A stretch of 64,000 bases of DNA from Siphonodentalium dalli (taxonomy: Eukaryota > Mollusca > Scaphopoda > Gadilida > Siphonodentaliidae), in assembly GCA_032622095.1 (NCBI GenBank), contig CP136069.1:200678690-200742689 (forward strand), written 5' to 3'. The translations under genes were made by a program, and so were the position numbers. Positions 15,990-45,483 of the stretch are shown in pieces. The notes beneath the pieces were generated by a model that saw nothing but the letters and a program-made list of their open reading frames with translations, searched no databases and was not told the origin of the DNA. How positions within the stretch are numbered: the first letter of the stretch is position 1; every line of letters begins with the position of its first letter.

Positions 15990-16016
15990 ATGGATTCCGA
16001 CCGGCCATCGCTTCGC
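15990..16016 (+). CDS. RGD-rich gene, exon 1 (start codon)
   Basis: ATG with purine at -3 and G at +4, nine codons (MDSDRPSLR), then a perfect GTAAGT donor in phase 0. Joined to exon 2 it makes a complete signal peptide, which is the main reason for choosing this start. It is so short that it would be missed by length-based ORF calling. Confidence 0.55.
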
Positions 16017-19000
16017 GTAAGTATTATGTTTCATTACACTCGATTTCCATTGAAAAGGCCGTTAATTAAACATGGTAATGTCACTTGTGAATTATGTCAT
16101 TTCTCGTGACGTCATTGTCGTTACGTCGCGTACTGATCTAGACTGAATTTTCTATGGTTAATCTTTCTCCGCATCGGGACATGCATTAATTCTTGATTAT
16201 TAATCATATTTGGCGAAGTAAATTGATGCAGGAGTGCAACAAATAGAGTAGTCAATTAGTTCCGGGAATTACGTTAAATAATTCACTCGAGGCGAGAGAA
16301 GTTTAGGTAATTCTCGGAACCAATTGATTACTCTCAACATTGTCCAAGCACATTAGACATGGAAGGGGAAAGGTAAGAACATAAATAGGAGAAAGTATTT
16401 TTAAAAAGATTATCTAGGTCATAACATATCGTGGATGTGCCACGAAATGTCCCCTTAAAATATGAGTTGATCTTTCTGAGTTACACCATTTTTTCCATAT
16501 AAGAAAGCACCCTTTTATTTTCGACAATCCATGGAAATAATTGGATGCTGCGACAAGTAATACAAATTTCTCCAACAGAGACACCCATTCAAAAGCGAAC
16601 TTCGAATTAATGTTACATATATTGATTTATTACACGATCCTACCATTATTCCATTCAATAAACCCATTCTATAAATTGTGATATTAAACGTTCGTTTAAT
16701 AACAGGAAATAGTGCCAGGTGACCTTTGACTTCCGGTTTACCGTCTTTTAACATTCCGTACGCTACGTCTCAAAAATACTATGACTTCCAATATTTTTCC
16801 AACAAACTATCATGACTGAAGAATTTGAAAAGTTATGTTATTAAATATACGCCATTAAAAGCGCCAAATAGTCTTTATTTATCTGGGACTATTTCTTTAC
16901 GCGGGCAAACAACGAATAGTTACGTGAAACGTCATCGCATGTCTTATAGAAGCCGATGTTAGTTTCTTGTTCCATTTGTTGATTTAAGTATGTTTTGTCG
17001 ATGTTTTGGATCATGTAATAAATAGAATCTACAACTCGTCCCCAGTTTATAGCGGAAATTACAAAACTCGTCCAGTAAATTAGGTCTGGACCTCGCCAAA
17101 GGCTCGGTCCAGACCTAATTTACTGGACGAGTTTTGTAAATTCCGCTATAAACTGGGGACGAGTTGTAGATCCTCTATATATAATATCATATTTCGACCC
17201 AAAAACATTATTTTAGGCAAACTGTCGTATTAGATGTCTGATATCTCGGGTTTCACAAAATATAGACGTGAGCAATTTGTTTTAACCCTTTACCCAACAA
17301 ACCGGCCAAAACCGGCCAAATAAAGCTTCAACGGCCTAAAATATCTTCGGTCTGTCTCAATAGAACCATACAGATATGGATATCATTGGAACCGGCTCCT
17401 TGACCACATTGTGATAGTTACAGTTATGCCCTGTGCCAATGCATTCTCTTATATATGCGAGTCGACCATAGGTCGCCTCGCATATATAAGAGAATGCATT
17501 GGCCTAAAAAAAATCTTTTTAAAACAGTTTTACCATTTTTTCTTACAATCTTTAACAATTTTAGAATTTTTAATGTGTTAAGCCAATGCATTCTCTTATA
17601 TATGCGAGGCGACCTATGGTCGACTCGCATATATAAGATAATGCATTGGCACAGGGCCCTTCTATTGGGGAAAGGGTTAACAACTGTACGTACATCACTT
17701 TTTCACAATACAATGTATAACAATGCGACTATGCCTATCGCAAGTGGTCAATACTTGTAATAACATAACCCTACCCACTAAACGGGTTCTCCTCGACCTA
17801 GTCACATTGTGCTCTTTACTTTGTCTAATCTAGTCATATGAATTAGGCAGTTAAACAAGTTTGTGTGAACTTAGAGTACGGAAGCGAAAAGAGCGACACG
17901 GACAAAACAATACACACAGCCATGAAATGGCCGTCAAAATGGCCGCAACACCAAGCCATGCCACGACGAAAGAAACATATTGTAGAATCATCTATGAGTC
18001 ACAATACGTATTGCCAATATATACGTCTGTTGTTATATACAGGGTCCGCGCTGGATCGAAATTTACTTTTGCCAAATTATTTGCCAAATGAAAATATGTT
18101 TTTGCCAAATTCTTTTAGAATTTGCCAAATATTATCCCTGATAGTATCATATTCTGCAACCTTGATTTGATATCGATAGGAAAGCAGTTACTTACTAATT
18201 ATACTCGCATCTCAATTGTGGTTTATCAACAATAATAAGCGATAGTTTAGGTAATATATGTACGCGATAGTTTAGGTAATATATGCATGCGATAGTTTAG
18301 ATAATATATGCACGCGATAGTTTAGGTAATATATGCATGCGGTAGTTTAGATAATATGTGTACGCGATAGTTTAGATAATATGTGTATACGATAGTTTAG
18401 GTCATATATGCATGCGATAGTTTAGGTAATATATGCATGCGATAGTTTTGGTAATATGTGTATACGATAGTTTAGGTAATATATGTACGCGATAGTTTAG
18501 GTAATATATGCATGCGATAGTTTAGGTAATATGTGCATGCGATAGTTTAGGTAATATATGTACGCGATAGTTTAGGTAATATATGCATGCGATAGTTTAG
18601 GTAATATATGCATGCGATAGTTTAGGTAATATATGTATGCGATAGTTTAGGTACAATATGCATGCGGTAGTTTAGATAATATGTGTATACGATAGTTTAG
18701 GTAATATATGTACGCGATAGTTTAGGTAATATATGCATGCGGTAGTTTAGATAATATGTGTATACGATAGTTTAGGTAATATATGTACGCGATAGTTTAG
18801 GTTATATATGCATGCGATAGTTTAGGGAATATATGTATGTGATAGTTTAGGTAATATATGCATGCGATAGTTTAGGTAATATATGCATTCAATAGTTTTG
18901 GTAATATGTGTATACGATAGTTTAGGTAATATATGTACGCGATAGTTTAGGTAATATATGCATGCGATAGTTTAGGTAATATGTGCATGCGATAGTTTAG

Positions 19001-22000
19001 GTAATATATGTACGCGATAGTTTAGGTAATATATGCATGCGATAGTTTAGGTAATATATGCATGCGATAGTTTAGGTAATATATGTATGCGATAGTTTAG
19101 GTAATATATGCATGCGGTAGTTTAGATAATATGTGTATACGATAGTTTAGGTAATATATGTACGCGATAGTTTAGGTAATATATGCATGCGGTAGTTTAG
19201 ATAATATGTGTATACGATAGTTTAGGTAATATATGTACGCGATAGTTTAGGTTATATATGCATGCGATAGTTTAGGTAATATATGTACGCGATAGTTTAG
19301 GTAATATATGCATGCGATAGTTTAGGTAATATATGCATTCAATAGTTTTGGTAATATGTGTATACGATAGTTTAGGTAATATATGTACGCGATAGTTTAG
19401 GTAATATATGCATGCGTTAGTTTAGATAATATGTGTATACGATAGTTTAGGTAATATATGCATGCGATAGTTTAGATAATATATGTATGCGATAGTTTAG
19501 GTAATATATGCATGCGATAGTTTAGGTAATATATGCATGCGATAGTTTAGGTAATATATGAATGCGATAGTTTAGGTAATATATGTATGCGATAGTCTAG
19601 GTAATATATGCATGCGGTAGTTTAGATAATATGTGTATACGATAGTTTAGGTAATATATGTACGCGATAGTTTAGGTAATATATGCATGCGATAGTTTAG
19701 GTAATATATGTATGTGATAGTTTAGGTAATATATGCATGCGATAGTTTAGGTAATATATGCATTCAATAGTTTTGGTAATATGTGTATACGATAGTTTAG
19801 GTAATATATGTACGCGATAGTTTAGGTAATATATGCATGCGATAGTTTAGGTAATATGTGTATACGATAGTTTAGGTAATATATGTACGCGATAGTTTAG
19901 GTAATATATGCATGCGATAGTTTAGGTAATATATGTACGCGATAGTTTAGGTAATATATGCATGCGATGGTTTAGGTAATATATGCATGCGATAGTTTAG
20001 GTAATATGTTTATACGATAGTTTAGGTAATATATGTACGCGATAGTTTAGGTAATATATGCATGCGATAGTTTAGGTAATATATGCATGCGATAGTTTAG
20101 TTAATATGTTTATACGATAGTTTAGGTAATATATGTACGCGATAGTTTAGGTAATATATGCATGCGATAATTTAGGTAATATGTGTATACGATAGTTTAG
20201 GTAATATATGCATGCGATAGTTTAGGTAATATATGTACGCGATAGTTTAGGTAATATATGCATGTGATAGTTTAGATAATATGTGTATACGATAGTTTAG
20301 GTAATATATGTACGCGATAGTTTAGGTAATATATGCATGCGGTAGTTTAGATAATATGTGTATACGATAGTTTAGGTAATATATGTACGCGATAGTTTAG
20401 GTAATATATGCATGCGATAGTTTAGGTAATATATGTATGTGATAGTTTAGGTAATATATGCATGCGATAGTTTAGGTAATATATGCATTCAATAGTTTTG
20501 GTAATATGTGTATACGATAGTTTAGGTAATATATGTACGCGATAGTTTAGGTAATATATGCATGCGGTAGTTTAGATAATATGTGTATACGATAGTTTTT
20601 TGTGGGTATGAGTAGCCAATCACGATTCAAAATGATAAGATGGCTACCAAAATGGCCACCGAAAATTGTCGAAATTTAAGTTCTGCTCAGAGGAAAGCCG
20701 AAACAACACTTCGGTTGTGAGCTAACGATGACAGACCTATTAAACATGTTGCCAATAATCTACTACCACAATCAGTTCAGCCCGAAATGTTCCAACTAAG
20801 CAGTATCTACTGCAGGATCCAACACGATGTCCACTTATTACGAGGGACTATCTGGAAATTAATTAAAAAGAAATTAAATTGCTACGAATCAGGATTATTT
20901 GAAAACACAGTGTCAACATTTATCGGTGGTCTAGTCCGGAAGCATCAGGCTATAATAGGTTTTCCAGTGATGGCGAAAGTGAAAAGGACAGGAGGGAAAA
21001 GCGAATAATCTGGGGTTTACTTAATTGGTGGGCAAGTTGGTTATCGGAGCTGGGGAGTTTCAAAGTAAAATTATGTTCTTCAATATCAAGAGGAAAAATG
21101 AAAATTCGCACGTACATTGTATACCCTTCACATATTATGTGACAATTCCGTGTCATGCGATTGTAGGTATATACATGTGGATAGAAACATTCTAGTACAT
21201 ATATAGACGCACCTATATCTTCTACACATTTAGTGAATTTCCCCAATGATATGTAGACACAATGTTCGTCACGGCTGGATCTGACCCGTACGCGTAAAGG
21301 TATCAACCATTTAGCTTGATTAACTGGCATTTCAAGGTTGTCATTGGATAGAAATGCCACATGAACATTAACAACATGTTTGTCTAAGAAATGTGAACGA
21401 TGAACATGTTATTTTCCGGATGTTAGACAATCAAACTGCTACATAAGGCGTTCATCCATGCTCATCAGAGCACGAAATATGTGCAAATTAATGACACGAA
21501 AACTATTTCATGCGGACGACGTACTCTAGACCTACATCCAACGTCATTTCCTATTAACTTTTATTGTTTGTACAGACTTTTTCGAGGTTTGAAAATCCCG
21601 CTTCTCCAAGAAAACCTCCACATACTTACGGAGTCGATGTGTAAACAATGTATGGGGATAGTTTCTTCATACATATATGTATTTGGCACACGTATTTTCT
21701 AGAACATAAGAGATCACCATTTACCGGAGAGTTGATATCTGGGAAGAGATCAGAGTAAAACTACTTTTCTTACATGTCGAAATGGGGAATCCATGGGCTA
21801 CATTTAGTTCCAGCTTGAAACTTGAAAATGATGGCCGAGCCCGAATAGTTAATATTTCGTCGCATCAGTGCTATAATGTAACCCACATTTTCAACTTTCC
21901 GAGAAAATGAAGGTTGAAGATTTTAGACAACATTTCTCCTAATGTTGACAAAGCATGACGTACTGTTGTATTTATCCCAATGAAAACTGACATTATAGCT

Positions 22001-25000
22001 GTTCATTGAACCTCATATTGTTTTCTGTTTATTCCCTCGTTTTCTTTTAAAAAGCAATAGCTTGTTTGGAGATATGACATTTTGCGTATGCCAGCGACGA
22101 TTCGTTTCCGTGCTATAATGAAGTTGTGCTAATAAATGCAGATTAAGCTAAATATGGTGGCAATCGCATGTGTCTATGAACTAAAAAGTGCCTATTCTGC
22201 ACTATGAAAATTCACCCATGTGCATCATCATACAGAAATGTGTGGAACAATCACAACATTTAAATCACCAAATGATCACGTGACTAACATGGAGATACTG
22301 CCATATAGCACACATTTTAGAATTCACAAACACAAAACAGAAGTCACGTGGACAACCTGAAGCGTCCGATTGGCTGCTGTTGGACATACGACCTCATAGC
22401 ACGAATAATTGTAAAGATCGCTGGAGATACGACATTTGCTTCACTGGTTTGTGCGAATATTTGTCATCCAATGCAAGGACAGTTTGGCCCATCGGATTGG
22501 ATTTTTTCTCACGATTCGAATGGTATCAAATACTCATTTCCCGCCATAATGGATATACGACATTATAGCAATGATGAGTCGAGATTTTGTCAACCCGCGG
22601 GAAGCCACCAAAAAGATTGAAAATAAATAGTTTTGATGTATATGAGCCAACTATCAACTGCATCCACCACTCACAACTTCCATTATGTGATAAGCTGGGC
22701 AGAGTCTACCATTTTCGTTTTGGAAGCCATATTAGATAAAATTTATTGTTTCTTTTGGTCTATTTGAGATGGAATGTTCACAAATAAAAGAAACGATCAA
22801 TTATTTTGTAGACAAGATCTGCTCATCCCTAAATATCAAATGTGACCAGAACCCCAAAGTCGATTTTGGTTAAATTTCATACCGCATTCGTTATAACTTA
22901 TTAGTGAAGGACCGGAGTAAACTATGATCTAATCTATTAGAAATGTCATTGCTGTAATGATCAGTTGACACGATCATTGAAAGAATATACCCATTGTTTC
23001 CCAGTTCAGAGAGCAACAAGTGATAAACAGAAGTGATAGAAAATAGTATTTTTCACATCGGGTGGCCATTTTGGCAGCTATTTTTGGTACTGATTTTTAA
23101 GTTTTTACATAGAGCTAGCATAATGGCATCATAAAGAGGTATACATTCGTATTTATTTAGTCAATTTTATTCATCAACCACTACTTATAATGGATTGAAT
23201 GACACTGTGATCAATATCCGCCATTTTCCATATTTTGACCGCCATTTTGGCAGCCATTTTGAGACAAAGCGCCAATTTGGGTTTCATTGAATTGGAGTAT
23301 TTATAGATATTGGTATGCCCAACTTACATTGTACAGTTCTGTCCATTTCTTGTTGATATATGACTGTAATCACAGTGGAGAGTTTTGTGGAATTTTATAC
23401 CGCGTTCTGTAAAATCGAATTGTTGAGGGTGTAGATGAGTCTGGGACCCCATTTATGGTATCTTTCATTGCTCCAATGATGAATTAACATGAATATGACT
23501 AAACAATGTCGCCAGTCTGAACCATTATCAAACAACAGGAATTGATCTTTAAGATATTAGGCAAAAACTTCAAATGTTCGAGTTTTGCCATTTTGGCGGC
23601 CATCTGGGACGATGGGTTCCATTTTTGCCATAAACAGGTGGCACAACATTTTACCTTTGCAAAAATGTATACATTTGTATACATATGACAACATTTGTTC
23701 TCACTGTTATCGAATTAATCTCAGTCAGAGTATCTTTTGACTAACGGCAGCCATGTTGGACGCCATCTTGGATCCTGAATTTTGCCCAAAGCGGATTTTA
23801 GCGGATTTTGGATATGTTATGAACGAGATTCTCCCGCGTCGAATGACACCAAAACCGCTTCTATACCAATTTCTTCCGGGTCGAACCCTTTGACGACCAC
23901 ACTATTTAGGTAATATATGCATGCGATAGTTTAGGTAATATATGTACGCGATAGTTTAGGTAATATGCATGCGATGGTTTAGGTAATATATGCATGCGAT
24001 AGTTTAGGTAATATGTTTATACGATAGTTTAGGTAATATATGTACGCGATAGTTTAGGTAATATATGCATGCGATAGTTTAGGTAATATATGCATGCGAT
24101 AGTTTAGTTAATATGTTTATACGATAGTTTAGGTAATATATGTACGCGATAGTTTAGGTAATATATGCATGCGATAGTTTAGGTAATATGTGTATACGAT
24201 AGTTTAGGTAATATATGCATGCGATAGTTTAGGTAATATATGTACGCGATAGTTTAGGTAATATGTGTATACGATAGTTTAGGTAATATATGCATGCGAT
24301 AGTTTGGTAATATATATGTACGCGATAGTTTAGGTAATATATGCATGCGATATTTTAGGTAATATATGCATGCAATAGTTTAGTTAATATGTTTATACGA
24401 TAGTTTAGTTAATATATGCATACGATAGTTTAGGTAATATATGCATGCGATAGTTTAGGTAATATATGTACACGATAGTTTAGGTAATATATGCATGTGA
24501 TAGTTTAGGTAATATATGCATGCGATAGTTTAGTTAATATGTTTATACGATAGTTTAGTTAATATATGCATGCGATAGTTTAGGTAATATATGTACGCGA
24601 TAGTTTAGGTAATATATGCATGCGATAGTTTAGGTAATATATGCATGCGATAGTTTAGTTAATATGTTTATACGATAGTTTAGTTAATATATGCATGCGA
24701 TAGTTTAGGTAATATATGTACGCGATAGTTTAGGTAATATATGCATGCGATAGTTTAGGTAATATATGCATGCGATAGTTTAGTTAATATGTTTATACGA
24801 TAGTTTAGGTAATATATGTACGCGATAGTTTAGGTAATATATGCATGTGATAGTTTAGGTAATATATGCATGTGATAGTTTAGGTAATATATGCATGCGA
24901 TAGTTTAGGTAATATATGTACGCGATAGTTTAGGTAATATATGCATGTGATAGTTTAGGTAATATATGCATGTGATAGTTTAGGTAATATATGCATGTGA

Positions 25001-28000
25001 TATTTTAGGTAATATATGCATGTGATAGTTTAGGTAATATATGCATGTGATAGTTTAGGTAATATATGCATGTGATAGTTTAGGTAATATATGCATGTGA
25101 TAGTTTAGGTAATATATGCATGTGATAGTTTAGGTAATATATGCATGTGATAGTTTAGGTAATATATGCATGTGATAGTTTAGGTAATATATGAATGTGA
25201 TAGTTTAGGTAATATATGCATGTGATAGTTTAGGTAATATATGCATGTGATAGTTTAGGTAATATATGCATGTGATAGTTTAGGTAATATATGCATGTGA
25301 TAGTTTAGGTAATATATGCATGTGATAGTTTAGGTAATATATGCATGTGATAGTTTAGGTAATATATGCATGCGATAGTTTAGGTAATATATGTTCGCGA
25401 TAGTTTAGGTAATATATGCATGTGATAGTTTAGGTAATATATGCATGTGATAGTTTAGGTAATATATGCATGTGATATTTTTGGTAATATATGCATGTGA
25501 TAGTTTAGGTAATATATGCATGTGATAGTTTAGGTAATATATGCATGTGATAGTTTAGGTAATATATGCATGTGATAGTTTAGGTAATATATGCATGTGA
25601 TAGTTTAGGTAATATATGCATGTGATAGTTTAGGTAATATATGCATGTGATAGTTTAGGTAATATATGCATGTGATAGTTTAGGTAATATATGCATGTGA
25701 TAGTTTAGGTAATATATGCATGTGATAGTTTAGGTAATATATGCATGTGATAGTTTAGGTAATATATGCATGTGATAGTTTAGGTAATATATGCATGTGA
25801 TAGTTTAGGTAATATATGCATGTGATAGTTTAGATAATATGTGTATACTATATTTTAGTTAATTTGATTGATTTTTAGCTTCTCATTCTGGCTCTATTGG
25901 CCTGCATTGTGAGTGCGCAGATCGGAGGTCCAGGAGGTCCAGGAGGTCCAGGAGGTCTAGGAGGTCTAGGTGGTCTAGGCGGTCTAGGCGGCAGATATAA
26001 ACCATGTGGGGTGAGTGTTACTACGTTATGTAAAGCGCCTCATAATGTTCCGACATAATATTAATCCCAATCTAGTAATAGTGAGTGGGTCTGATTACTT
26101 TTTCGTAGACTTTCTATTTCCCAAACCGCGGGATTCCACGGTAGTTGCGCTAATCACAACTCACTGTTTGTAGTCCCAAGATAAAACTGTTCAATCAAAG
26201 AGTCCTTTTAGAAGCAATTTTGGTGTGTTATAATGCAATATTTGTGTTGTAAACTATGATGGGGAAAAAAAACTCTGGCCTCTGTGGATGCTATGCGACA
26301 GGGCTCTCTTTGGCTTACTGGACGCTATGCGGTAGGGCGCTCTGGGGCTCTCTGAATGCTAAAGGGTTAAGAGGGGTATGAAATTCGCGTACCGCCCGGA
26401 AATGGTATGAATCCTGCGTACCATAAGAGTGTGGGGCTGCAGCACAGAAATAATTAGCTTTCTCCAGTTGTTTTGCATGAAAAATTGCAAATTATAGGGG
26501 AAAAAAAAAACTTTTCAGTTATTAACAATTTGGTTCAAAGTGTCACCGTTGGTGTCATACCTAGTCTGAGGTGCATGGTTTTGGGAAGGGACACCGACAT
26601 TTATAAAACATTTCTTATTTTCGTTTGCCTCCAATCTTATTTATATAGTCATCCCATGGTATGATGAATGTAATGTTCATGTTTCCATAGTGCCGATGTC
26701 CAGGTCAGGGATAGTGGACATGCCACCAGATTAGGGATAGTGGACATGCCACCAGATCAGGGATAGTGGAGTGGGCGTCCAGCGATAGTGGAGACAGCAC
26801 CAAACTTTACTAAACATAGTTTCCGTCGATTTTCACTTACATATGTCACACTTACATATATATATGTATCAACTCATTGTTACCAGGTTCATCATGGTGG
26901 TTTGGTTAAAAACACACTACAGCTACTCACTTGTTCGGGTGCGTGAAACAGATAAGTTCGTACCCAGACGCTATGCCAACTGGAGGAATGTAGAATTCTA
27001 CTAAAATTGCCGAAAATCTCAAGCAAATCGACCATACCGTTTCTATTTGATCACCCCATCGGATTGTTTCACATGACTTTAACATTGCCAAATTTAGCAT
27101 TATCCGAGTCAGGGATGAAAATTGAGAAAATTATTAAGGCACCAACGTTGCTAAAATCTACACCGATTGTACCAATTATACAATGTAGTTAACTCATAAA
27201 TATGCCTCGATTACCATACACGTCAGGAATTCGGCTTAATCTTCGACATTGAAATATCTATACCTTACTCGTATTTGAATTCGCGCTGTACTATTTTTCG
27301 CTCAGTTTTGAATTCGCGCATATATATATCTGCGCGAAATCAAAACTGACAACAATATTTTTCGTAAAAGTCTTGCATCTGAGGACAGGTTCAGTTCTCA
27401 GTCGTTTCTAAAGATACACATGTATATTAAACACGTTCATTATGGTTTTTCATCGTGTAAAACATAACTGTATCAGCATTGTGTTGCGAAGATAGCTGTT
27501 TATATGCTCCAAATAATGACTCTGATATTGAACAAGTTATGGACTGGATATCAATGCAATGGACTGGAAAACAGAAAACCACAACCGCGAAAGCAACGGA
27601 CTTAAGAAAAACCAACACTTGGTTGTGTGGCTATATGACCATTGGTGATGCGCATATGTATACCTGGAGTGACTCAAAGGTCATGAGAGGGGTGTATATG
27701 TTTATCTTGAGAGTGCTATTGCGCAATGGGCGTAGCGAGTAGATTTACAGGGATTGAACGTATGGCCAAGGGAGTGGTGAATATGTGTACTAATAGGGAC
27801 TGTATGATAATGAATGTGGTGACACGGAGTAACCTGGTGTACCTGTATGGTGAATAATGGCTGTGTGGGGTGTATGGGTAAACACAAGTGTGGTATTGTC
27901 ATGACTGAGGGGGTATGTGTATAAGGCGAGTGATTATATAACGATTGGTGAGGTGCATATGTATACCTGGATGAGGGGTATGTATATAAAGCGAATGATT

Positions 28001-34000: not shown

Positions 34001-37000
34001 CCCACCCTAGACCATAGATTCACTCCAGGTATACATGTAAACCTCACTAATGGCCATCCAGCCCTTCCAGATATAAAAAAAACCTGCACACACGACCACT
34101 CAAACAATCCATAATTGCATATACACCTCACACATGACAATTCAGCAATTCACTGTATAATCATACACGCCATCCATGATAATACAGCTAAGCCATATAC
34201 ACCCACCAGTGATAATACATCCACGAGATATTTAAATATACATCCCACCCGTTACCACAAGGACACTCCCTATATACCCACACGCTCGATAATGTCCACC
34301 CAGGTTACCCCAGGTATTCATATTCAATCATGACCGTACAGTCACTCCACGTATACCTATACACATTACCCGTAACCATAAAATCACTTCCTATTTAACC
34401 ACACACCCCATCCATGATCATACAGACAACACATGTACATCCCACCATGAGCTTACAGTCACTCCATATATACATAATAAACACATAGATGACCACGTAG
34501 CTATATCCATACATCACACCAATGACCATACAGGCACACCGGGTGCACCCGTGCTGGATATACACAATCATACACCATACAGTCACTCCATGCATACCGA
34601 TTCACCTCACACCTGACCATGACCTCTCCCTGTATACCTAGATGCATCTTACCATGGACAACCCACTCATAACCATATAGTCACCCATTGTATGCCTACT
34701 CACATCAGTCATGACATACAATAACTCACTGTATATCTATTCACCTCACATATGACCATAGTGTAACTCCCTGGCTACGATCTTGGCATCCACACTGTAT
34801 CCTGTTGACATTTATTTTATCATAATGGACCAGAATAGCCAAAGATTATGGTCCATTTCAGTTCTGTCTCAAAGTTCTGCCCATTTCCTTTCGATAATAT
34901 GGCCAGAATCACAAAAGAGGTTCTCGGCAAAATTACATACTTTAAAATGAATTTGTCATGCCCCATACGGAACTGGGACAACCAGAATAGAACATGTAGT
35001 TGTCAGTTAATTAACTAACACGTATAATAACCAAGTGAGTCACAATTTGCTACCTTTTCGGATAATGCAGCGAATGTTCGGGATATATGTAAAAAATTTA
35101 CATTTTACAAATTTGGTTGCCATTTTGGAAGCCATCTTGAGCAATTGGTATATTAAGACCGTAGTGTGACACATTTAAAATAGACCAAAACAATAAACAC
35201 CTTTCAGTCCAAAGATAGTTATATTTTTCCTGAAAAAATGGTCCAAACCTGAAAAGTTAATTTTTGCCAATATTTATGTCAATTTTTTGAGAGAAAAGTC
35301 CAATATTTTTGACGATGTCAGTGGTGACAATAGTAACAATTAACCATGGTGCATCAGACATGTTAGTATTCAATGTATATAATGCAGAATAGCCAATTTT
35401 ATACATCAACCACAACGTGTAAGCGATTGCAGGGCACGCTGGTGTAATATTTACCATTTTCCATATTATGGCGGCCATATTGGCAGCCATTTTGAGCGAA
35501 AGTAAGAATTTTGGTTCAAGTGACTTGGAATGTTCATAGGTAATGATATGCCTCACTTACATTACAAAGTTCTGTTCATTTCTTGTTTAAATATGACTAG
35601 AATCCCAATTGTGATTTTTTGTGAAATTTTATACCACATTCTGTAAAATCGAATTTTTGAGGGATCGGAAGGGGCTAGGACCCCAATAATTGCATATTTA
35701 ATTGCTCCAATGATCAGTTAATTTACAAAACACAAAATAAAGTTGCATTACTCAACTAGTTCCAAACAGCATGAATTGATCTGGAAGATATTTGTGAAAA
35801 AATGTCATATTTTCAAACTTTCGGCGGCCATTTTGGCGGCCATCTTGAATGGTGAGTTTCAATTTCGGCCTAAAATTGTATCATTATGTCTTAGCTTCAC
35901 GAAAATATATACATTTGTATACATTTTACAAGATTTTCCCGCTATAATTTGCATAAAACTGACTTAGGGTCTTGTCTGAAAAACGGCGGCCATGATGGAC
36001 GCCATCTTGTCTGGAGTCTAAAAGGCCACTTTTTTTCTAGTTAACATTGCTTAAAAGTTGAAGGACATAATAAGGAACAAAATGAGTGGGGTGAAGTTAA
36101 GTCCCAGGGTGGGGGGTGGGTGCAAGGGTACCCCTATTAGCCCCCGGACCCTATATACATACGGGTAACTCACAATGAGGCCACATGCCCCTATATATGG
36201 GTAGCGCATAAAGGGGCCATAGACCCTATATACATACATGTAACTCACAATGAGGCCACAGGCCCCTATATATGGGTAGTGCATAAAGGGGCCATCGACT
36301 GGTAACTCACAAAGGGGACGCATGGGCCTTCGCCCAAAGGGAGCCTGTATTCGGGAGCCCATTACAAGATCAAAATGGGCGCGAAGCGCAACGTGGTTAC
36401 ACACAGGGCCCTTATATAAGTAGCACAGAAATGGGACCACAGAGATGTTTCAGTTAGTATAGTAGGTAAGATATGTTGATTTTATTGCGTATCTTATGTG
36501 CATGTATAGGCCTATCAATGTCGGGGTGTAAAAACACAGTTCTTAATGTAATAAAGTGTTCCCACGCCACCAGGGACAAAACAGAGAAGCACTGCCATTT
36601 CATTTCTAATATAACATGTTTAAAGGTACGGTTGGCCTTGGCGGTGGGTATCCTGTGAAAATATTTACATCCGTCAAAAACCGCCACAAACAGAAAGAAC
36701 ATCAAAATGTAGACAGACTTTGTCCGTATACAAATAAGAAATATCGCATAAACAGTATGTTATTGTCATCTGTTTGACCATTGTTATATATTTACACACT
36801 AAGTGTTGTCATCACTAAATCCAGCATTCTGATTGGTCGGCGCCCACGTGGCTAGTTGCAGTTATTTCTCGGTGAATGCTTAACGCCTCATAACACCAAG
36901 CTAATAACACCATCGATACGTCATTAGGTTTGGAAAAACGAACGCGTAATGCTTTGGGCGCATTTTGACTCGCGCAGGATTGACTTAATACATCATCGGG

Positions 37001-40000
37001 TTTCAACATGAAGAGAAATTGTTCCTATTAACTTTTGCCAAGGGTGCTATTGGGTATTTTGGGCTGATCTTGTCACGATACACTTTTCGATTTAAATATA
37101 TTTACAAAAGCGGCTTTTTCGCTAAATGTATATAAATATAAGGATTAACTGTCATGTGGACTATTGTTATGGAGATGTAACAGTGAGGTAAGTGGACATA
37201 ACTTGTATGTAAAACCCTTCGGGTTTTACACAAGTTATGTCCACTTACCTCACCGTTACATCTCCATAAAAACAGTCCACATGACAGTTAATCCTTATGT
37301 AAACAAAAGCATAAAAAGTTACTTTTCTGGTGTTTGTTTATATTATGATGGTAAACACAAAGAGCGTTCTTTTTGGGTGAATTCCTGATATGGAACTAAT
37401 AAAGAGCGTTTATGCCATTTGTGTGTGATTAGCCAGTAGTATTGTGCTGTCTTCTGTAACACAATCAGGCTCTTGATTAGGTAAAATATAGTAGGTCTTT
37501 GTGATAACATGCTGTTTACGTGATGGTCATGGTATATATGAACGAAACTATATGCGTTTTAATGTTTTTCTGTTTACGGTGATTGGAACAAATATGAATA
37601 TTTTCGACAACTAAGGCCTCACGTGCCTTTAAGCCCGCGAACACCAGAAAGTAACAAGTAACATGTATTTAACCGTCATTTTTGACGGACAATCTCCTAG
37701 TATAATAATAAAACTAAAAAAAAAAAATGTCTGTCCGGCTATGGGCGACCAAACGGCTGGACCATCGGAGCTGAAAATGTGTACACATGGTCAACTGCCC
37801 CATGGCATCTTATATGATATGTGCCGTTGGAATCAGCTGTCTTAAAAGGGCAAACTGATTAACTAAATCATCAATTACATACCCAAATTGGTTGGATTAT
37901 GGTCGTTGACAATTGATTGACGAGGGTAAATTGGCCCGATGAGAGTCATGGGATAGATGCCATTGACCTCATACGACTTAAATGGGCACTAAGAAACAAT
38001 TTAAATAAACCATTAATCATGTACCAAATATGATTCGACCCCGGTCGCTGCAAATTGGTCTACAGTGGTAAATTGACACAGGAACTACCATCGGATAGGT
38101 GCCGTGGACCCTAAAGGGGATCTTTAAAATAACAGTGACGTTATTTCAGGTACAAATGTGCGACATGTGGGAGACGGAACAGTGTATGGATCCATGTAAC
38201 CCTGGCACCGGACCCGACACCTTAAGATCGTGTCTCACCTGCATTTGTAAGTATTTCTTTTAATAGACACCGTTCGTATAATAATATTAGAGACCTTTCG
38301 CAAAATCACGAATACGATTACGTATATGGAAATATCCTGCCATTATACGGCCAAAATTCGATCATTAAATACGGGGGTTCTTATGTGAGACAACATATAC
38401 ACCACGCAGTTTAATTATGTGCAAAAGTGTCAAGAATGTGCCACCGGTCCTGCTTGGGGACGCTCTAACATTATCCGTGTGGTGTATTACACACAGATAA
38501 GAACATGGGATCTGAAAAGAGACACACATTACTTTTTCCATCAAATACAATTATGTGAATATACTAAATATAGTGGGACATATGCCGTCTTACCAATTAG
38601 CCATCGCAGGTAAATTGGTAAATCGGTGTCAACATTACTAGGACAACATATCCTATCCGTAATCGTAATCGTGATTTTTGCGAAAAGTACGACAGATAAT
38701 TATTACGGATAGAGTACTACGTCACTAGAATTTGTGTTCTTTCTATTCGTTGTCGTTTTTCTCCATTCGTTGTTACGATTGCGGTTTCCGATTTTCAACA
38801 AAACTCTCAAATACATTATGTCAGGGTTAATGGACGAGCAACTGGACATTCATACACTGGAATATTGAGTCCATTAACTGACTTTAAATGGTTTTGAAAT
38901 GCATACCAACGAACTATGTTAATAAATCTCGATGAATGCGACATATAAGAACGTTTTATGTAAATAGTCCTCGGCTGAGAACAAAACCACGCACATTGAC
39001 ACAAATCGTGTGAGTGGTTATTGCACGTGGGCTATATGCCGTGATAACAGTTGTATAGAGGCACTATACAGCTGTCCAGTACAACACTGTTCGAAACTAC
39101 ACAAACTTATAACACTATTTGTTTTCGCTGTAAATATAACCTAAGGTATATGCGTAATATATACTGTCGACGCAATTGCTGTTAGGCACGTATGGATTTA
39201 TGATAGTTTTGACTCGCGAATCATCATAGTAATATCGTTCTGCGCAGAAGAACAGTAACTCTATTATGATAACGTGTATGTTTGAATGTGTTAGATACAA
39301 CTGGTATGCAAAATAATATGTTCCCGTTTGTGACAAGAAATCGTATTACGTGGGATTTATAAGCGCTATGCAGATGTTTGGTATTGTGGGCTAGTGTTAG
39401 AAGCGAACTATTTCTGGAATAGTGGTCCCCTTGGGAGTTCATTGGTCAGGTTGTGGGAGACATGAACACTCTAAAATACGAATGTCGACTTGTGGTATAA
39501 AGCATAATATAAAGTGCCCATTTGGACAAATAGAAGGTCGAGTGATTACAAAGAAGCTGGGTTTTACAATAGTTGGGGTATATAGCAATTGATTGATTTT
39601 TCGTATTAGTTTCCACGCATATATACCGATCTTCCGCACGACGACATAAACATATGGTGATACCTGGGCGCATGTTACAACAATTTAGAAATTTCAACTA
39701 TGTCTACAAATAGCATAACTTTGAGTGAGGTTCGGGATACACATGCACACGATTTGAGTGAGGTTCGGGATACACAAGCACACGATTTGAGTGAGGTTCG
39801 GGATACACATGCACACGATTTGAGTGAGGTTCGGGATACACATGCACACGATTTGAGTGAGGTCCTGGATACACACGATTTCGCGGCAAAATGGTCTCAA
39901 ATTGAAGGAGATGAATTCGATCCCGATAGCATCCAACTTTGGAATCAAAATACATGCCAATATTTCTCGCCTACATAGGGTAACAAATTGCTCTCAAATA

Positions 40001-43000
40001 ATATAAAATTCTCTATCTTCGGACTAAATTGCAGAAGCATTAACGCAAATTATGGAGATCTAAAACATTACTTTGTGATTTGAAAACAGAAGAAAATTTA
40101 TTCGATGTTATAGCCCTAACAGAAATATTCAAAGTGCATAGTTCCTCAGATTTTTCACTTCCAGGATATCACCCCTTAGAATTCAATTCCCGACCTGACG
40201 GCGACGATGCCAGAGGGGGGTGTTGGTATTTATATAAAGGAAAATCTTCAATATAAACCAGACCAGATTTGACACTATTTATACCACACATAATAGAAAC
40301 ATTATTTATAGAAATACACCGAGGAGCGAAAGATAATTATATAATAGGATGTATTTATAGACCGGACACAGCACCAAAGGCCGATTTGAACAAATTATGT
40401 TGAAATTCGATAATATATTAGAAAAATTGAACAATGCAAGTCTTAAATAATAGGAGACCTCAACATCGACCTCTTAAACTTCGACACGCATAACAAAACT
40501 AACGATTTCACAAACAATGTCTTCACTAGAGGATTCGTGCCCATGATAACACAACCTACAAGAATAACTGAGCACTCTGCTACCCTAATTGATCACATCT
40601 ACACCAACAAAGTACAAGATGGTCACCAAACAGGGATAATTACTTGCGACATCTCCGATCATTTTGGCACATTCCTCTCCGAATCAAACAAACACAAGCC
40701 CATAAACCCCCCTCATAAAATAATCACTACACCCCAAATAATGTCAATAATTTCAATTTTTTTTTTAAATCATGTAAATTCGACTCAGTTCTCAGTTGTA
40801 ACTCCCCTAATAAGGCATATGAATAGTCTTTAGACATATATATGAACGCGCATGATCTAGCTTTTCCTCTCATAACACGAAATGTACCGACAAAATATAT
40901 AAAACGCGAACCATGGATAACACCTGGACTAATCAAATCCACGATTATACTCTAATAATCTGAAGGCACCGTCAGAAACAAATAAAATCGCCTATTTAAA
41001 TTATCGTCAATTATACAATAAACTAATCAGGAAATGTAAAAATAATTATTATTGCGATAGTCTAGAATAAAATAAGAATGATATAAAAAACACATGGAAA
41101 ATTCTTTAAAAAGCCATCAATAAAAATAAAAAATCATGCAACTACCCTCAGACATTTAAAGATAACGACACAGAGCTATCTGACCTGAACATAATAGCCG
41201 AAAAATTCAATGACTACTTTTCAAAAATCGGTCGAAATACCAGCAACTCTATACACACTGCAAATGATGCAAATTTCACTGATTACCTTCGAAATAGGCG
41301 AAAAAACGAATTTGAAATCGGACCTACATCGATACAGGAAATAATATTGATATGTTATACTATGAAAGGGAAAATGAGCAAAGATTACAACGGCATATCG
41401 ACAGCAATTATGAAAGAGAGTATCTTCATAATAGCCCCACCACTTAAGCATATATTTAGTCTATCATTTTCCAATGAAAATTTCCAAAGTAGTCCCCATT
41501 CCTAAAATAAATAACTCTAAGGAAATAACAAACTATCGCCCAATAAGTATCCTGCCATCTTTCTCTAAACTACTTGAAAAAATAATGCAAAAACGATTAG
41601 TAGATTTCCTAAATGAACATGAAATCTTGTATAAACACCAATATGGATTTAGACCAAATCGCTCAACATTTCATCCGATTGTGCACCTTCTAGACCACCT
41701 CATTAAAAATAATTATACACCGACACGGGATTCCACCTTAGCTGTATTTATTGATTTATCTAAAACATTCGATACGATCGACCACGACATACTGATATCG
41801 AAACTTGACCACTATGGCACCAGGGGTGTAGCAATGTCATGGTTCCATAGTTATTTGAATGAGAGGAGGCAATACGTTGAATATAATGGGAGTACTTCCA
41901 ACCATATGAATACTTCCTGTGGAGTCCACCAAGGCTAAATTCTTGGGCCTAATATTTTTTTAATATACGTGAATGATATGGTAAATTCTACAACACTGGA
42001 CATTTTATCGTATGCCGATGACACTACACTATTCACAAGCGGTAAAGATGGCGAACTAGTACAAAGTTATGTAAACAATGAATTAGCCAATGTATCCGAT
42101 TGCTGCTGCTGTAATAAACTCTCAATTAATATTAATAAAAGCAATTATATGCTTTTACACAACAAATGGAATACTTTGACATTAAAGCTAAATGTCATTC
42201 AATTGAACCGAATGGGGAATCTTGGGCGTGAATCCTCGACAAAATTTCTAGGTATGCACAATTATGAGAACTTGACATTCAAAAAGCACATATCCATAAT
42301 CTGCTCCAAAATATCACATGCAATCTACTACATCAATAAAGTGAAACATTTTTTCCCAGGTAAAGCATTACAAACATTGTACTATGCACTGATTCAAAGC
42401 CACTTAGTTTATGGTATCCAAATATGGGGTCATATTCCGGAAGTCAAGACAATATTCCTATTACAAAAACGAGCATTACGTATAATATGCAATAAGAAGT
42501 ACAGGAGTCACACAGATCCACTCTTTAAAAGAGAGAAAATATATGACTTACACACTCTCAATTCTTCAATGTCCATGCAAAGGCGCTATATATTAATTTA
42601 AAAAATAAGTGTTATAAATAAAATGTGTTCTTGTTATAACTGGGGGTTTGGACGTGGTTTACGATCCGCTTTTCATTATTTGGTCCCCATTAGTGTGCTG
42701 CGTTATTATTATCATAAATATGTATTTTTTCGACCAAAACGTTTTCGGGGGGCAGCGACTAAAATCTAATATCTCGCAAATCGATCAAAATGTTTGTCAA
42801 TGTATTTCTACATGCGATGTCCAGATAACTACCGAGCCATATGAATTATATAGTTTGTCATGTTTTGTTAATAAAAAATATTTTAGTACTACAAAATCGA
42901 TGTTAATGTATGCAGAATTACCTGTTAGCAATAAGATACGTTCTTGTTGTAACTGGGGTCTGGAAGCCTGAACACATTTATAATCAATTAAATGGTATAT

Positions 43001-45483
43001 CTGGACCAACCTTTCAGTCCATGATTCATATCAGGTCCCATTAAGATCAATTAGAAAATATTTTATAAAGAAATATGTAATGTTTCGACCAAAAACGTGT
43101 CTGGGGAGGAGTAGCTAAAAATAGTATCTAGCAAAATATGCTTGTCAGATAACTACTACGCCATATAGATTATTTCGGTATTATTGCTATATCAGTTTGA
43201 ATGATAATGTTTGAACAAAATATTTGTCTGAAAAAGAGCGATTCTTCAGCAAAAAATAAATGTTTCGGTTCCAAATGGCAGGAAAATTCCAAATAAACCA
43301 ACACTTTTTCCTAACAAGTAAAGATATGATTTAGTAGTTTTAACACCAACAGTGTTCAGGTGTTTTGTGCAATAGGTTAGGACTTACTCACAGGGCTCGC
43401 CTTGGCAAACTCGTTAATTTATGGAAAAAGTCACTGGGTGGGTATCGTTTATAGCCGATTTGACATTATAGCCTCCACCGATTCCGTTTTTTTCACTATA
43501 ATTTCCATGAACAATATATATTTCTCCGTAAAAAAAAAATGATTTAAACTTGTTGTACCAGGTATTTCCCACCACTTTTGACGTTTGGTCGCCGCATTAA
43601 TATATAACTAAATTGTAGAATCCATTCGGTATAAAGAAGACGAAATTTTATGTTGTCGTTTATTAGCCTGTTTAATGCATAGCAGTGCGTCTCTTCTGAG
43701 CAACATTGACAACAACAACAACAACAACAACTTCTGCATTTTCTTTTGGTGTTGTCCATAAAATTAACTAGTTTGTCGTTATTTCGATAAAGTATCATCC
43801 CATAAAGTGTTTTACTAATTGGAATAAAATAATAAAGCTTAGATTTAATGAAATAACGGGAAATAACTAACAAACACACCATATTTCACACAAATTCGCA
43901 ACACGTATGAGAAACATCAAAATCAGGGTGCGTGGCTTGTGGGAGGTGGATGGCACTATACAAAAGGGTCGGTCCAAACAAATCACTTTCGTATTTATTC
44001 TCAGATATTGCCGAATAAAACACAGACAAAACTTAATATTTATGTATATTATAGTTAGTTTCCAATAAAGGCATTATAAAGTTATTTAGTTCTGATGTAA
44101 ACGGTGGGGATACAAACGAGATTTCTAGCGTTTATATCTACATGTACACGTTTCATGTAATTCTAGCGTTTATATTTACATGTACACGTTTCATGTAATT
44201 CTAGCGTTTATATTTACATGTACATTTCATGTATGTCTCACGTTGTATATATAGAGGATATCCACACTTTTTCAGTGGATATGGGTTATATCTCATGTGT
44301 GATGACAAAACATTGAATTTCCACGAGTGGCTTTAGCCACGAGTGGAAATTCAAATGTTTTGTCATCACAAATGAGATTTAACCCATATCCACTGAAAAA
44401 GTGTGGATATTCTGTTTATTATATATTTAGTTACTTGCCTATGGCCCCCAATGAATGTCAATACATCAGAAATTTCACCAGTGGGATATCACTTATATCT
44501 CACTAGTGGGATATCACTTATATCTCACTGCTAAAACCTTATAATTCATGGGCAAGTATATAATAAATACATATACGTTGCATGCATAGCCAGCATTGTA
44601 TAACTACATATACGTTGCATGTATTTCCAGCGTTGTATGCCAAACATACACGTTTAATGTATTTCCAGGCTTATTATGCCTACATATACGTTTAATGCAT
44701 TCCGAGCGTTGTATGCCTGGTTTTGGTTTCATGTATTTTCGGTGTTGTATGTCTACATGAACGTTTTATGCACTCCCAGCGTTGTATGCCTACATAATAC
44801 GTTTCATATATTTCCAGCGATGGATGTCTACATGTATACGTTTGGTGTATTTGCACTATGTTATGCATATGTGTACGTTTTGTATATTCCATGCGTTGAA
44901 TGCCTGTATGTACGTTTCATGTATTTCAGCGTTGGAAGGAATAGATAGACCACCCTTCATGTTCGTGAGTAACCCACAACAGGCAGGGCCACCGCCACCC
45001 AACTCAGGACCGCAGCAACAACCGGGGCCACCACAACAACAGGGACCGCCACCTGGGCCACCACCCCAATCAGGACTGGCAGGATTCAGAGACAGGGGTG
45101 GCGGCAGGGGTGGTGGCGGCAGGGGTGGTGGTGGCAGGGGTGGTGGCGACAGGGGTGATCGTGGTAGGGGTGATCGTGGCAGGGGTGATAGCGGACGGAA
45201 TGACTTCGGCAGGAATGATCGCGGACGGAATGACTTCGGCAGGAATGATCGCGGACGAAATGACTTCGGCAGGATTGATTTCCCCCGAGGTGACCGCGGC
45301 AGGAGTAGTTTCGGCCGTGGCGATCGAGGTGATCGCGGCAGGAGTAATTTCGGCCGTGGCGATCGTGGCGATCGTTCCAGGGGGAGTAATGGAGTTCGCA
45401 GGAGGGGTCACCCAGACCCTTTCTCGCTCGGGTTACGTAGGTGGCCACAACGTCGGTCTAATCGTCGTCGATTTAATTGGTAA
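15990..45483 (+). CDS. Secreted Gly/Arg-rich protein with six-Cys module and RGD repeats (4 exons)
   Basis: Join of 15990-16016, 25879-26010, 38150-38246 and 44930-45483: 810 nt, predicted 269 residues. All junctions keep phase (0, 0, 1) and use GT-AG. Residues 1-22 form a signal peptide (MDSDRPSLR then LLILALLACIVSA). Residues 24-47 are GGP/GGL repeats. Residues 52-84 hold six Cys (52, 57, 65, 69, 81, 84), enough for three disulfides. Residues 101-132 are Pro/Gln/Gly. From 139 on it is Arg/Gly/Asp/Asn-rich, with eight RGD tripeptides (one RGDS) and a basic tail. This composition fits an extracellular matrix, shell-matrix or adhesive protein, but that role is inference and no named family is recognised. 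The gene spans 29 kb, mostly repeats. Extra small exons cannot be excluded. Confidence 0.65.
16017..16624. other. Start of intron 1, no feature recognised
   Basis: AT-rich intronic DNA without recognised repeats. Confidence 0.4.
16625..17184 (+). repeat. Dispersed ~560-bp repeat, copy 2
   Basis: Second copy of the repeat at 11383-11943, same orientation. It ends in the 17022-17178 hairpin, whose arms contain CTCGTCCAGTAAATTAGGTC and its reverse complement. Together the two copies bracket exon 1 and the presumed promoter of the RGD-rich gene. Confidence 0.75.
17282..17680. mobile_element. piggyBac-like MITE with two internal hairpins, copy 1
   Basis: TTAA-CCCTTTACCCAA at the left and its near reverse complement GGGGAAAGGG-TTAA at the right. 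TTAA is the piggyBac target duplication, and CCC starts the terminal repeat as in that superfamily. Internally it holds AACCGGCCAAA repeats and two palindromic hairpins (17436-17502 and 17583-17649). The same 399-bp element occurs at 52478-52876. No transposase. Confidence 0.75.
17681..18238. other. Intronic DNA with TTTGCCAAAT repeats
   Basis: At about 18060-18130 TTTGCCAAAT recurs four times. A related inverted cluster (ATTTGGCAAA) lies at 60490-60570. 'atggccgtcaaaatggccgc' at 17928 resembles the motif-rich palindromic family. No gene. Confidence 0.4.
18239..20598 (+). repeat. 25-bp minisatellite, block 1 (about 94 units)
   Basis: Tandem array of GATAGTTTAGGTAATATATG plus a variable five-base tail (CATGC, TACGC, or GTATAC-type variants). 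The marker variant AATAGTTTTGG recurs at 18891, 19341, 19766 and 20491. Those spacings (450, 425, 725 bp) are all multiples of 25, so a higher-order repeat of about 17-18 units is superimposed. The array lies in intron 1 of the RGD-rich gene. Confidence 0.95.
20599..23904. mobile_element. 3.3-kb segment splitting the 25-bp minisatellite
   Basis: Non-array DNA with array on both sides: the left array ends GATAGTTT and the right resumes at TTTAGGTAAT, allowing a TTT duplication. The right part (about 22690-23860) belongs to the motif-rich palindromic family. It shares 'ccgcattctgtaaaatcgaat', 'gctccaatgat' and 'ccattttggcggccatc' with 29000-36000. No transposase or clear terminal inverted repeats were seen. 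Open frames at 20950-21360 (minus, 136 codons) and 22348-22620 (plus) have no recognisable domain. An insertion is the simplest reading; an old interruption of a growing array is the alternative. Confidence 0.5.
23905..25856 (+). repeat. 25-bp minisatellite, block 2 (about 78 units)
   Basis: Same unit as block 1. The left third is mixed (CATGC, TACGC, TTTATAC tails). From about 24840 to 25830 it is almost homogeneous, with CATGTGATAG tails, implying recent local expansion. The array stops about 22 bp before the exon 2 acceptor of the RGD-rich gene. Confidence 0.95.
25879..26010 (+). CDS. RGD-rich gene, exon 2 (signal core and Gly-rich segment)
   Basis: Acceptor TTGATTTTTAG then 44 codons in phase 0: LLILALLACIVSAQ followed by GGP and GGL repeats and RYKPCG, ending at a GGG|GTGAGT donor. 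The hydrophobic run with VSA before Gln is a textbook signal cleavage site. The 9-bp Gly-Gly-Pro/Leu repeats are themselves a coding minisatellite. Confidence 0.8.
26011..27259. other. Intron 2 proximal part with small repeats
   Basis: Contains a threefold tandem repeat of about 31 bp (AGGGATAGTGGACATGCCAC) near 26707-26790. It also holds a dispersed block at 26966-27085 that recurs near 54820-55135 (CAGACGCTATGCCAACTGG, TCTATTTGATCACCC). No exon recognised. Confidence 0.5.
27640..28960 (+). repeat. ~41-bp degenerate minisatellite
   Basis: Variants of 'tatggtcatg.atgtggtgaatatgtatacat..agtgact' recur about every 40-45 bp. The same repeat occurs at 32385-33020 (same strand) and inverted at 33080-34755. 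Short frames reading MYTWSDCMV-like strings are repeat translations. Confidence 0.8.
28990..29900 (-). repeat. Body block of the palindromic family (deletion derivative)
   Basis: Matches the right arm at about 34800-35870 (shared: 'ggaagccatcttgag', 'caataaacacctttc', 'ccgcattctgtaaaatc'). It is preceded at 28938-28960 by the same centre sequence as 33004-33030 (GTGGCTATCG.TTTCCACAAT). It therefore has minisatellite, centre and one body arm, but lacks the opposite minisatellite and body arm. Confidence 0.7.
30531..30990. other. Intronic DNA with a ~62-bp tandem duplication
   Basis: 'ttgttggaaat.gacgctaaattaatttgtca...aagaaggtgaaggg' occurs twice in tandem at about 30672-30790. Nothing else recognised. 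Confidence 0.5.
30991..36148. mobile_element. 5.16-kb palindromic element with minisatellite-filled arms
   Basis: The left body (30991-32385) is repeated inverted as the right body (34755-36148). Outer ends are TCCGGGAGCTAATAG and its near reverse complement CTATTAGCCCCCGGA. Each body leads inward to the ~41-bp minisatellite (32385-33020 plus orientation, 33080-34755 minus). They meet at a small central hairpin, GTGGCTATCGCTTTCC ... GGAAAGCGATAGCCAC (33004-33097). No coding potential or recognised transposase. Partial relatives lie at 22690-23860, 28990-29900 and 48340-49200. Superfamily unknown; no target duplication found. Confidence 0.8.
36149..36420 (+). repeat. ~90-bp tandem duplication
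   Basis: 'ccctatatacatac.ggtaactcacaatgaggccaca.gcccctatatatgggtag.gcataaaggggcca' is present about two and a half times. The 129-codon minus-strand frame over it (MRYPYIGACGLIVSY repeats) is a repeat translation. Confidence 0.75.
36421..37137. other. Unannotated intronic DNA
   Basis: No exon or repeat recognised; overlapping short frames lack splice or domain support. Confidence 0.35.
37138..37298. repeat. Near-perfect hairpin
   Basis: The left arm ATAAGGATTAACTGTCATGT and onward is the reverse complement of the right arm, with only a few mismatches over about 75 bp. It closes on an AAACCCTTCGGGTTT tip. Likely a foldback MITE. Confidence 0.85.
37299..38149. other. Distal intron 2, nothing recognised
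   Basis: No repeat or exon beyond the flanking exon 3. Confidence 0.35.
38150..38246 (+). CDS. RGD-rich gene, exon 3 (Cys module)
   Basis: Acceptor GACGTTATTTCAG, then 32 codons plus one base ending at a T|GTAAGT donor. Encodes VQMCDMWETEQCMDPCNPG followed by TGPDTLRSCLTCI, five cysteines in 28 residues. The spacing C-x7-C-x3-C-x11-C-x2-C is not one I can match to a named domain. Phase joins exactly to exons 2 and 4, and the frame stops shortly after the donor if unspliced, as expected for a real exon. Confidence 0.75.
38247..39699. other. Proximal intron 3, nothing recognised
   Basis: No exon or clear repeat; several short overlapping minus-strand frames have no support. Confidence 0.35.
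39717..39880 (+). repeat. 33-bp coding tandem repeat in LINE 5' part
   Basis: GATTTGAGTGAGGTTCGGGA plus ACACATGCACAC is repeated about five times, encoding DLSEVRDTHAH in register. Because 33 is a multiple of three, the frame is kept. It sits in the frame upstream of the endonuclease region. Confidence 0.85.
40004..40950 (+). pseudogene. LINE endonuclease remnant
   Basis: Across several frames one can read typical exonuclease-endonuclease-phosphatase landmarks of LINEs: FGLNCRSINAN, DVIALTE, GGVGIYI, IGCIYRP, GDLNIDLL and LIDHIYTN. Frameshifts and stops separate them, so the domain is not functional. Confidence 0.75.
41161..42601 (+). pseudogene. LINE reverse transcriptase remnant
   Basis: Landmarks in order: NYRPISILPSFSKLLEKIM, QYGFRPNRS, FIDLSKTFDTIDHDIL, GVHQG followed by an in-frame stop (41936-41938) where intact elements continue, then YADDTTLF (active-site YADD at 42011-42022) and LVYGIQIWG. 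A single stop divides the two largest frames, so this copy is relatively young but inactive. Confidence 0.9.
42633..44114. other. Intronic DNA downstream of the LINE
   Basis: Contains a (CAA)n run near 43707-43730, which gives a poly-Cys stretch in the 112-codon minus frame at 43544-43882. That frame has no other support. No exon recognised. Confidence 0.4.
44115..44250 (+). repeat. ~38-bp tandem repeat (TTCTAGCG family)
   Basis: About three and a half units of 'ttctagcgtttatatttacatgtacacgtttcatgtaa'. Related to the longer repeat tract at 44560-44930. Confidence 0.8.
44258..44410. repeat. Near-perfect hairpin
   Basis: ATATCCACACTTTTTCAGTG... is inverted at the right end; arms are about 70 bp around a CACGAGTGGCTTTAGCCACG tip. 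Probably a foldback MITE. Confidence 0.85.
44440..44568. repeat. Small inverted-repeat element with duplicated GTGGGATATCACTTATATCT
   Basis: ACTTGCC...ATGAAT at the left pairs with ATTCATGGGCAAGT at the right; the centre carries a tandemly duplicated GGGATATCACTTATATCTCA. Confidence 0.55.
44568..44930 (+). repeat. ~40-bp repeats running into the exon 4 splice acceptor
   Basis: About nine imperfect units of 'tacgttt.atgtatttccagcgttgtatgcctacata'. The last unit reads GTTTCATGTATTTCAG|CGTTGG, so the exon 4 acceptor and the first exon bases are part of the repeat. Upstream units carry TTTCCAGCG or close variants, potential decoy acceptors. Confidence 0.8.
44930..45483 (+). CDS. RGD-rich gene, exon 4 (RGD/Arg-rich C-terminal domain)
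   Basis: Begins after ATGTATTTCAG with two bases completing a Ser codon, then 183 codons to TAA. Encodes LEGIDRPPFMFVSNPQQAG, a Pro/Gln linker, GGGRGG repeats, eight RGD tripeptides and about three NDFGR/NDRGR units, ending RRSNRRRFNW. Internal DNA repeats of 30 bp (about 45193-45270) and 39 bp (45301-45372) preserve frame. No Cys. A strong donor-like GTGAGT at 44965 lies inside the exon. No AATAAA was seen within about 400 bp of the stop. Long antisense frames here are shadows. Confidence 0.8.

Follow-up and report, generated by a model that had tools for sequence, protein, structure and literature searches.

A 64,000-nucleotide (nt) stretch of the genome of Siphonodentalium dalli (GenBank assembly GCA_032622095.1, contig CP136069.1, positions 200,678,690 to 200,742,689, forward strand), hereafter the window, contains a candidate animal protein-coding gene, which we interpret with moderate confidence as a gene of four coding exons that would encode a small secreted structural protein with a polycationic tail binding acidic matrix partners. 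The initial annotation of this DNA had proposed four exons with exactly fitting phases, the first two of which complete a signal peptide, and a protein with six clustered Cys followed by eight Arg-Gly-Asp (RGD) motifs in a very basic Gly/Arg/Asn/Asp domain; the exons were located to exact coordinates, and each of these elements was recovered in the joined model. The joined coding sequence (CDS) is 810 nt long, contains no internal stop, ends with TAA, and translates into 269 amino acids (aa). The four coding exons are spread across about 29.5 kb and are separated by three introns, all of the GT-AG type, with donors gtaagt, gtgagt, and gtaagt and compatible phases of 0, 0, and 1. Upstream of the ATG, an in-frame stop occurs with no intervening Met. 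Exon 3 is needed for the frame because its 97 nt link exon 2 (phase 0) to exon 4 (phase 1), and splicing exon 2 directly to position 44930 leads to a stop after four codons.

The repetitive tail is very likely coding and is the best-supported part of the gene model. Within the tail, codons lying 15, 30, 39, or 60 bases from each other and differing by a single base were compared in all six frames. In the CDS frame, 65 of 93 differences were synonymous versus 29.6 expected, which is the strongest excess among the six frames. The other two sense frames gave 31 of 119 (35.3 expected) and 10 of 95 (22.3 expected), and the antisense frames gave 17 of 93 (30.1 expected), 56 of 95 (35.7 expected), and 31 of 119 (34.8 expected); the antisense frame with 56 synonymous differences shares its third positions with those of the CDS. 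When any codon difference was counted, without the single-base limit, the CDS frame again ranked highest of the six, with 77 of 249 being synonymous. Because the compared pairs are not independent, the naive z of 8 cannot be read as a probability, although the ranking of the frames is clear. Several frames are open across the tail, and openness is therefore no proof of coding. What was found is a biased repetitive domain under reading-frame constraint, as looked for in a secreted low-complexity matrix protein.

The anatomy of the joined model supports a secreted, low-complexity, Cys-bearing, and polycationic protein (Table 1). The signal peptide was called by hydropathy and the -3/-1 rule, not by a dedicated predictor. 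The following GGP/GGL part is encoded by a 9-bp tandem repeat (25924-25988) whose units carry A, T, or C as the third base of their first Gly codon and have either Pro or Leu. The protein contains seven Cys, one of which (Cys 18) lies within the signal peptide, whereas the other six (Cys 52, 57, 65, 69, 81, and 84) form a module with the spacing C-x4-C-x7-C-x3-C-x11-C-x2-C. The tail shows tandem periods of 15, 30, 39, 45, and 60 bp, and its composition is led by Asp (13%), Gly (29%), Arg (29%), and Asn (7%), together with Phe. Its net charge is +22, with the remaining segments ranging from 0 to -2, and the computed isoelectric point (pI) is 11.4 for the whole protein and 12.0 for the tail. A secreted Gly/Arg-rich polycation with a disulfide core might also be a cationic host-defense protein that binds microbial surfaces, with which the charge and pI of the tail, the signal peptide, and the six Cys are compatible. 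However, no Pfam family was matched, and Pro/Gln linkers and Gly-rich segments such as those found here are more typical of structural proteins; host defense is considered unlikely.

As a structural protein, the candidate would lose its signal peptide, and the six-Cys segment could form up to three disulfides, giving a compact core or cross-links between molecules, and the protein outside the Cys segment would stay disordered. The tail may bind acidic matrix proteins, sulfated polysaccharide, mineral surfaces, or mucus through multivalent charge, and such binding could help to cross-link an extracellular matrix, for example, that of shell, cuticle, mucus, or adhesive.

Table 1. Exons, predicted protein segments, and adjoining repeats of the candidate gene (window coordinates)
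Feature	Positions	Strand	Residues	Length	Details
Exon 1	15990-16016	+		27 nt	MDSDRPSLR, start of signal peptide; ...TCGC/gtaagt, phase 0 donor
Exon 2	25879-26010	+		132 nt	gatttttag/CTT ... TGGG/gtgagt, phase 0
Exon 3	38150-38246	+		97 nt	gttatttcag/GTA ... ATTT/gtaagt; phase 0 in, phase 1 out
Exon 4	44930-45483	+		554 nt	tgtatttcag/CG ... TAA
Signal peptide	exons 1-2		1-22		MDSDRPSLR/LLILALLACIVSA/Q; predicted cleavage VSA/Q
Hydrophobic core	25879-25917	+			LLILALLACIVSA; exon 2; completes signal peptide
Gly-rich GGP/GGL segment	25918-25992	+	23-47		Exon 2; followed by RYKPCG, which carries the first module Cys
Six-Cys segment	exons 2-3		48-85		First Cys in exon 2, five in exon 3 (VQMCDMWETEQCMDPCNPGTGPDTLRSCLTCI)
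Exon 4, first part (linker)	44930-45081	+	86-136		SLEGIDRPPFMFVSN, then Pro/Gln/Gly-rich linker; acceptor in final minisatellite unit
Exon 4, second part (Arg/Gly/Asp/Asn repetitive tail)	45082-45483	+	137-269		Eight RGD; basic C-terminus ending RRRFNW; stop TAA
25-bp satellite, two arrays	18239-20598 and 23905-25863				Intron 1; one satellite (TTTAGGTAATATATGCATGCGATAG and variants); strongly G-skewed
37-bp minisatellite	44568-44934	+			Reaches into exon 4 acceptor; unit holds TTTCCAGCG

The RGD motifs, which the initial annotation had connected with integrin binding, are all located in the 133-residue tail, seven as RGDR and one as RGDS. RGD is largely one register of a GRGDR-type repeat: the tripeptides RGD (8), GDR (8), DRG (10), and GRG (7) are nearly equal in number, and a 39-bp duplication (45286-45374) copied part of the RGD set. 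Residue shuffles of the tail contained a mean of 1.5 RGD, and none of 5,000 reached 8, but this control ignores the repeat; with dipeptides preserved, the mean was 4.6 (standard deviation, 1.3), at least 8 RGD occurred in 1.1% of 2,000 shuffles, and a modest excess is left. The case for a functional integrin motif is weak because the four tripeptides are about equally frequent, seven of the eight motifs are RGDR, and the dipeptide-preserving shuffles average 4.6; the usual contexts are RGDS, RGDT, and RGDN. The presence of the eight motifs was borne out; integrin binding through them is possible as a secondary role. An RGD-based cell-adhesion protein, whose repeats would present many integrin-binding motifs to cells, has in its favor the number of motifs and the residue shuffles, and the RGD motifs of four coral skeletal proteins are read as integrin links in the available text of one report (PMC4043741). 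Set against the repeat register, the prevalence of RGDR, and the dipeptide-preserving shuffles, this alternative appears doubtful. It seems quite improbable that the protein represents an orphan family confined to one lineage, with a new six-Cys module joined to a polycationic tail of many RGD motifs and serving to bridge cells (through integrins) and acidic extracellular matrix or mineral.

An extracellular matrix or biomineralization role, as initially proposed for this protein, is plausible by analogy with known shell proteins. Shematrins, as far as the available descriptions go, are likewise Gly-rich shell proteins; they have a short basic-aromatic C-terminus, whereas the Gly-rich part of the candidate is short and its bulk is Arg-rich, and to our knowledge they have no six-Cys segment. 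In the available text of a study on Lottia gigantea, the nacrein-like shell protein Lotgi1|239188 is described as secreted, with a region of 26% Asp, 23% Gly, 22% Arg, and 13% Asn (PMC3374290). It shares with the candidate a secretion signal and a C-terminal low-complexity Asp/Gly/Arg/Asn region (13, 29, 29, and 7%, respectively, in the candidate), but the candidate lacks carbonic anhydrase and has a six-Cys segment and a strongly basic tail. Nacrein was rejected as an identity, since no Pfam match to an alpha carbonic anhydrase domain was obtained in the 269-aa protein. In KRMP-3, a member of the lysine-rich matrix proteins (KRMP) of Pinctada, the Lys-rich region is responsible for the effect on CaCO3 and crystal growth and the Gly/Tyr region binds chitin, according to the accessible part of the source (PMC4498902). 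The KRMP family resembles the candidate in having a basic region and a Gly-rich low-complexity region but is rich in Lys and Tyr, and the likeness is one of composition (PMC4498902). Mollusc shell secretomes often contain repetitive low-complexity domains, as stated in the available portion of another study (PMC4897951). The plausibility of this role comes from compositional analogy with these shell proteins (PMC3374290 and PMC4498902); no homologue was found in the collections searched. Such a protein would be ordinary among matrix-type secretomes, although precedents do not make it one. If it is expressed as modeled, the gene would add to matrix-type secretomes an orphan secreted protein whose repetitive, RGD-bearing tail is unusually basic, and would provide a simple recombinant test case for whether RGD in repeats is an integrin ligand or a repeat by-product; the general picture would be unchanged by this gene alone.

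The homology collections covered were Pfam, PDB, IMG/VR, and phages, with animal proteomes not among them. Exon 4 alone, read in the CDS frame from 44941, was unmatched in Pfam at an expectation value (E) of up to 1, and Decapeptide (E 0.01) and OSR1_C (E 0.68), which fell below the cutoffs, came from a reading from 44969 in a frame other than that of the CDS and were rejected. In PDB, the 68-aa and 37-aa parts had no match. The whole protein had a single PDB match, chain 8jjr_K (PCPI-13), which covered residues 9 to 73 (E 1.9e-5), spanning the signal, the Gly-rich stretch, and some of the Cys segment with no Cys pattern aligned, and was taken as a Gly-rich low-complexity match. None of 31 pattern stretches in IMG/VR viral contigs was confirmed, and the phage collection gave no match to the protein. 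Among the peptide strings of the protein searched in the literature, only RGDRGDRG was found, the five other strings being absent; judging by their titles, the papers containing it mainly concern nanoparticles, Raman probes, and cancer therapy. The Cys spacing C-x3-C-x11-C-x2-C of the candidate resembles the antistasin core, C-x3-C-x10-C-x2-C-x-C. The last Cys of C-x-C is missing from the candidate, as the codon divided by the intron encodes Ser once spliced. An antistasin domain was rejected, as Pfam gave no match up to E 10, whether or not the unspliced Cys was included, and the spliced form was unmatched in PDB. In the text available for Lottia, an antistasin-type protease inhibitor domain is reported in WAP shell proteins (PMC3374290).

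Several observations weigh against a matrix protein gene of this structure. The analogy with shell proteins is one of composition, a property prone to convergence, and the Lottia authors, in the available text, term the nacrein-like tail acidic, unlike the basic tail of the candidate (PMC3374290). In Pfam (E up to 10), none of the three queries, namely, the 269-aa protein, its 68-aa Cys-plus-linker part, and its 42-aa Cys part, had a match. No paralogous exon was found within the window, where just three matches at E 0.45 to 0.54 were obtained beyond self matches. From the stop to 47400 there is no AATAAA or ATTAAA, the first being located at 47440, and the first 1.1 kb past the stop contains only the variants ACTAAA and AATATA. 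Exons 2 and 3 also have to be set against chance, using scans with thresholds of our own choosing that were set while the exons were known. The scan of the whole window for exon 2 (acceptor, donor, and hydrophobicity) gave one match on the forward strand and none on the reverse, and the 22-kb search region, block-shuffled 100 times, gave a mean of 0.22 exon 2-like matches (maximum, 2). The corresponding scan for a Cys exon gave three forward matches, two of which are readings of the minisatellite that overlap each other and extend into exon 4, and none on the reverse strand; 60 shuffles of the 64 kb gave a mean of 0.32 exon 3-like matches (maximum, 6), with at least one in 9 of the 60. With this appreciable chance expectation, the evidence for exons 2 and 3 taken singly is no more than suggestive, and together, given their matching phases, the predicted pair is fairly convincing. 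Two of the three acceptors (25863-25879 and 44568-44934) adjoin tandem arrays whose units hold AG sites (TTTAG and TTTCCAG). The second 25-bp array stops 15 bases short of exon 2; the acceptor-like TTTAG present in its units occurs 78 times in 23905-25878. The exon 4 acceptor is the final, altered copy of the minisatellite (TTTCAGCG at 44924). Three upstream TTTCCAG copies (44624, 44662, and 44811) are possible decoy or alternative acceptors for exon 4, and the CDS frame has no stop upstream as far as 44761, so that an earlier acceptor could add residues. The acceptor-satellite adjacency may reflect chance, the presence of decoy sites, or an origin of the acceptors from satellite units. Read from sequence alone, the model of exons 1 to 4 is plausible.

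In a mis-joined model, coding exon 4 would come from another gene or from other upstream exons, for example, those of an intracellular RGG-box protein, and exons 1 to 3 would be partly chance or another gene. The exon joins are predictions from genomic DNA, the chance expectations of 0.22 and 0.32 apply to exons 2 and 3, the acceptors of exons 2 and 4 adjoin satellites with many look-alike sites, and GGGRGGGGRGGG resembles RGG boxes. However, the phases are all compatible, the splice sites are all canonical, and exon 3 is required for the frame. The scan for extra in-phase exons, whose thresholds were set in the same way and which was restricted to phases 0/0, 0/0, and 1/1 for introns 1, 2, and 3, gave none in intron 1, one of 12 aa in intron 2, and two in intron 3, both within the minisatellite. 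In addition, the joined protein has no RNA-binding domain by Pfam, and a mis-join is judged improbable. An intracellular RGG-box RNA-binding protein was rejected given the lack of a Pfam match and the presence of a signal peptide; this identity would be reopened if the join is wrong.

Beyond the four-exon candidate, Pfam was applied to 20 open reading frames (ORFs) of the window chosen by eye from the longer ones (60 ORFs of at least 80 aa exist outside masked stretches), and only reverse transcriptase was found, in 2 of the 20. These two adjoining ORFs, in different frames (RVT_1, E 9.5e-21 and 1.7e-7), form a decayed retrotransposon in intron 3 (41435-42598, forward strand), which by its look we take to be probably of the non-long-terminal-repeat type. 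Two other ORFs, located upstream of these (40447-41505), were unmatched in Pfam. In viral contigs, the reverse transcriptase fragment had no confirmed relative, and the 25-bp satellite unit was absent. Just upstream of the retrotransposon pieces, a 33-bp repeat (39720-39875; 4.7 copies, 96%) encodes in-frame LSEVRDTHAHD units in a 105-aa ORF. The window contained no Rfam match and no tRNA. A 34-bp tandem array at 55610-58369 (80 copies, 97% matches) leaves each of the three forward frames open over more than 930 codons; in this window, the length of an open frame does not indicate a gene. Intron 2 contains a long imperfect inverted repeat (31019-32330 and 34815-36113), with about 1.3 kb per side and about 2.5 kb between, which may represent a mobile element or a duplication folded back on itself; it consists of a chain of eight arm pairs of 62 to 545 nt that are 84 to 97% complementary.
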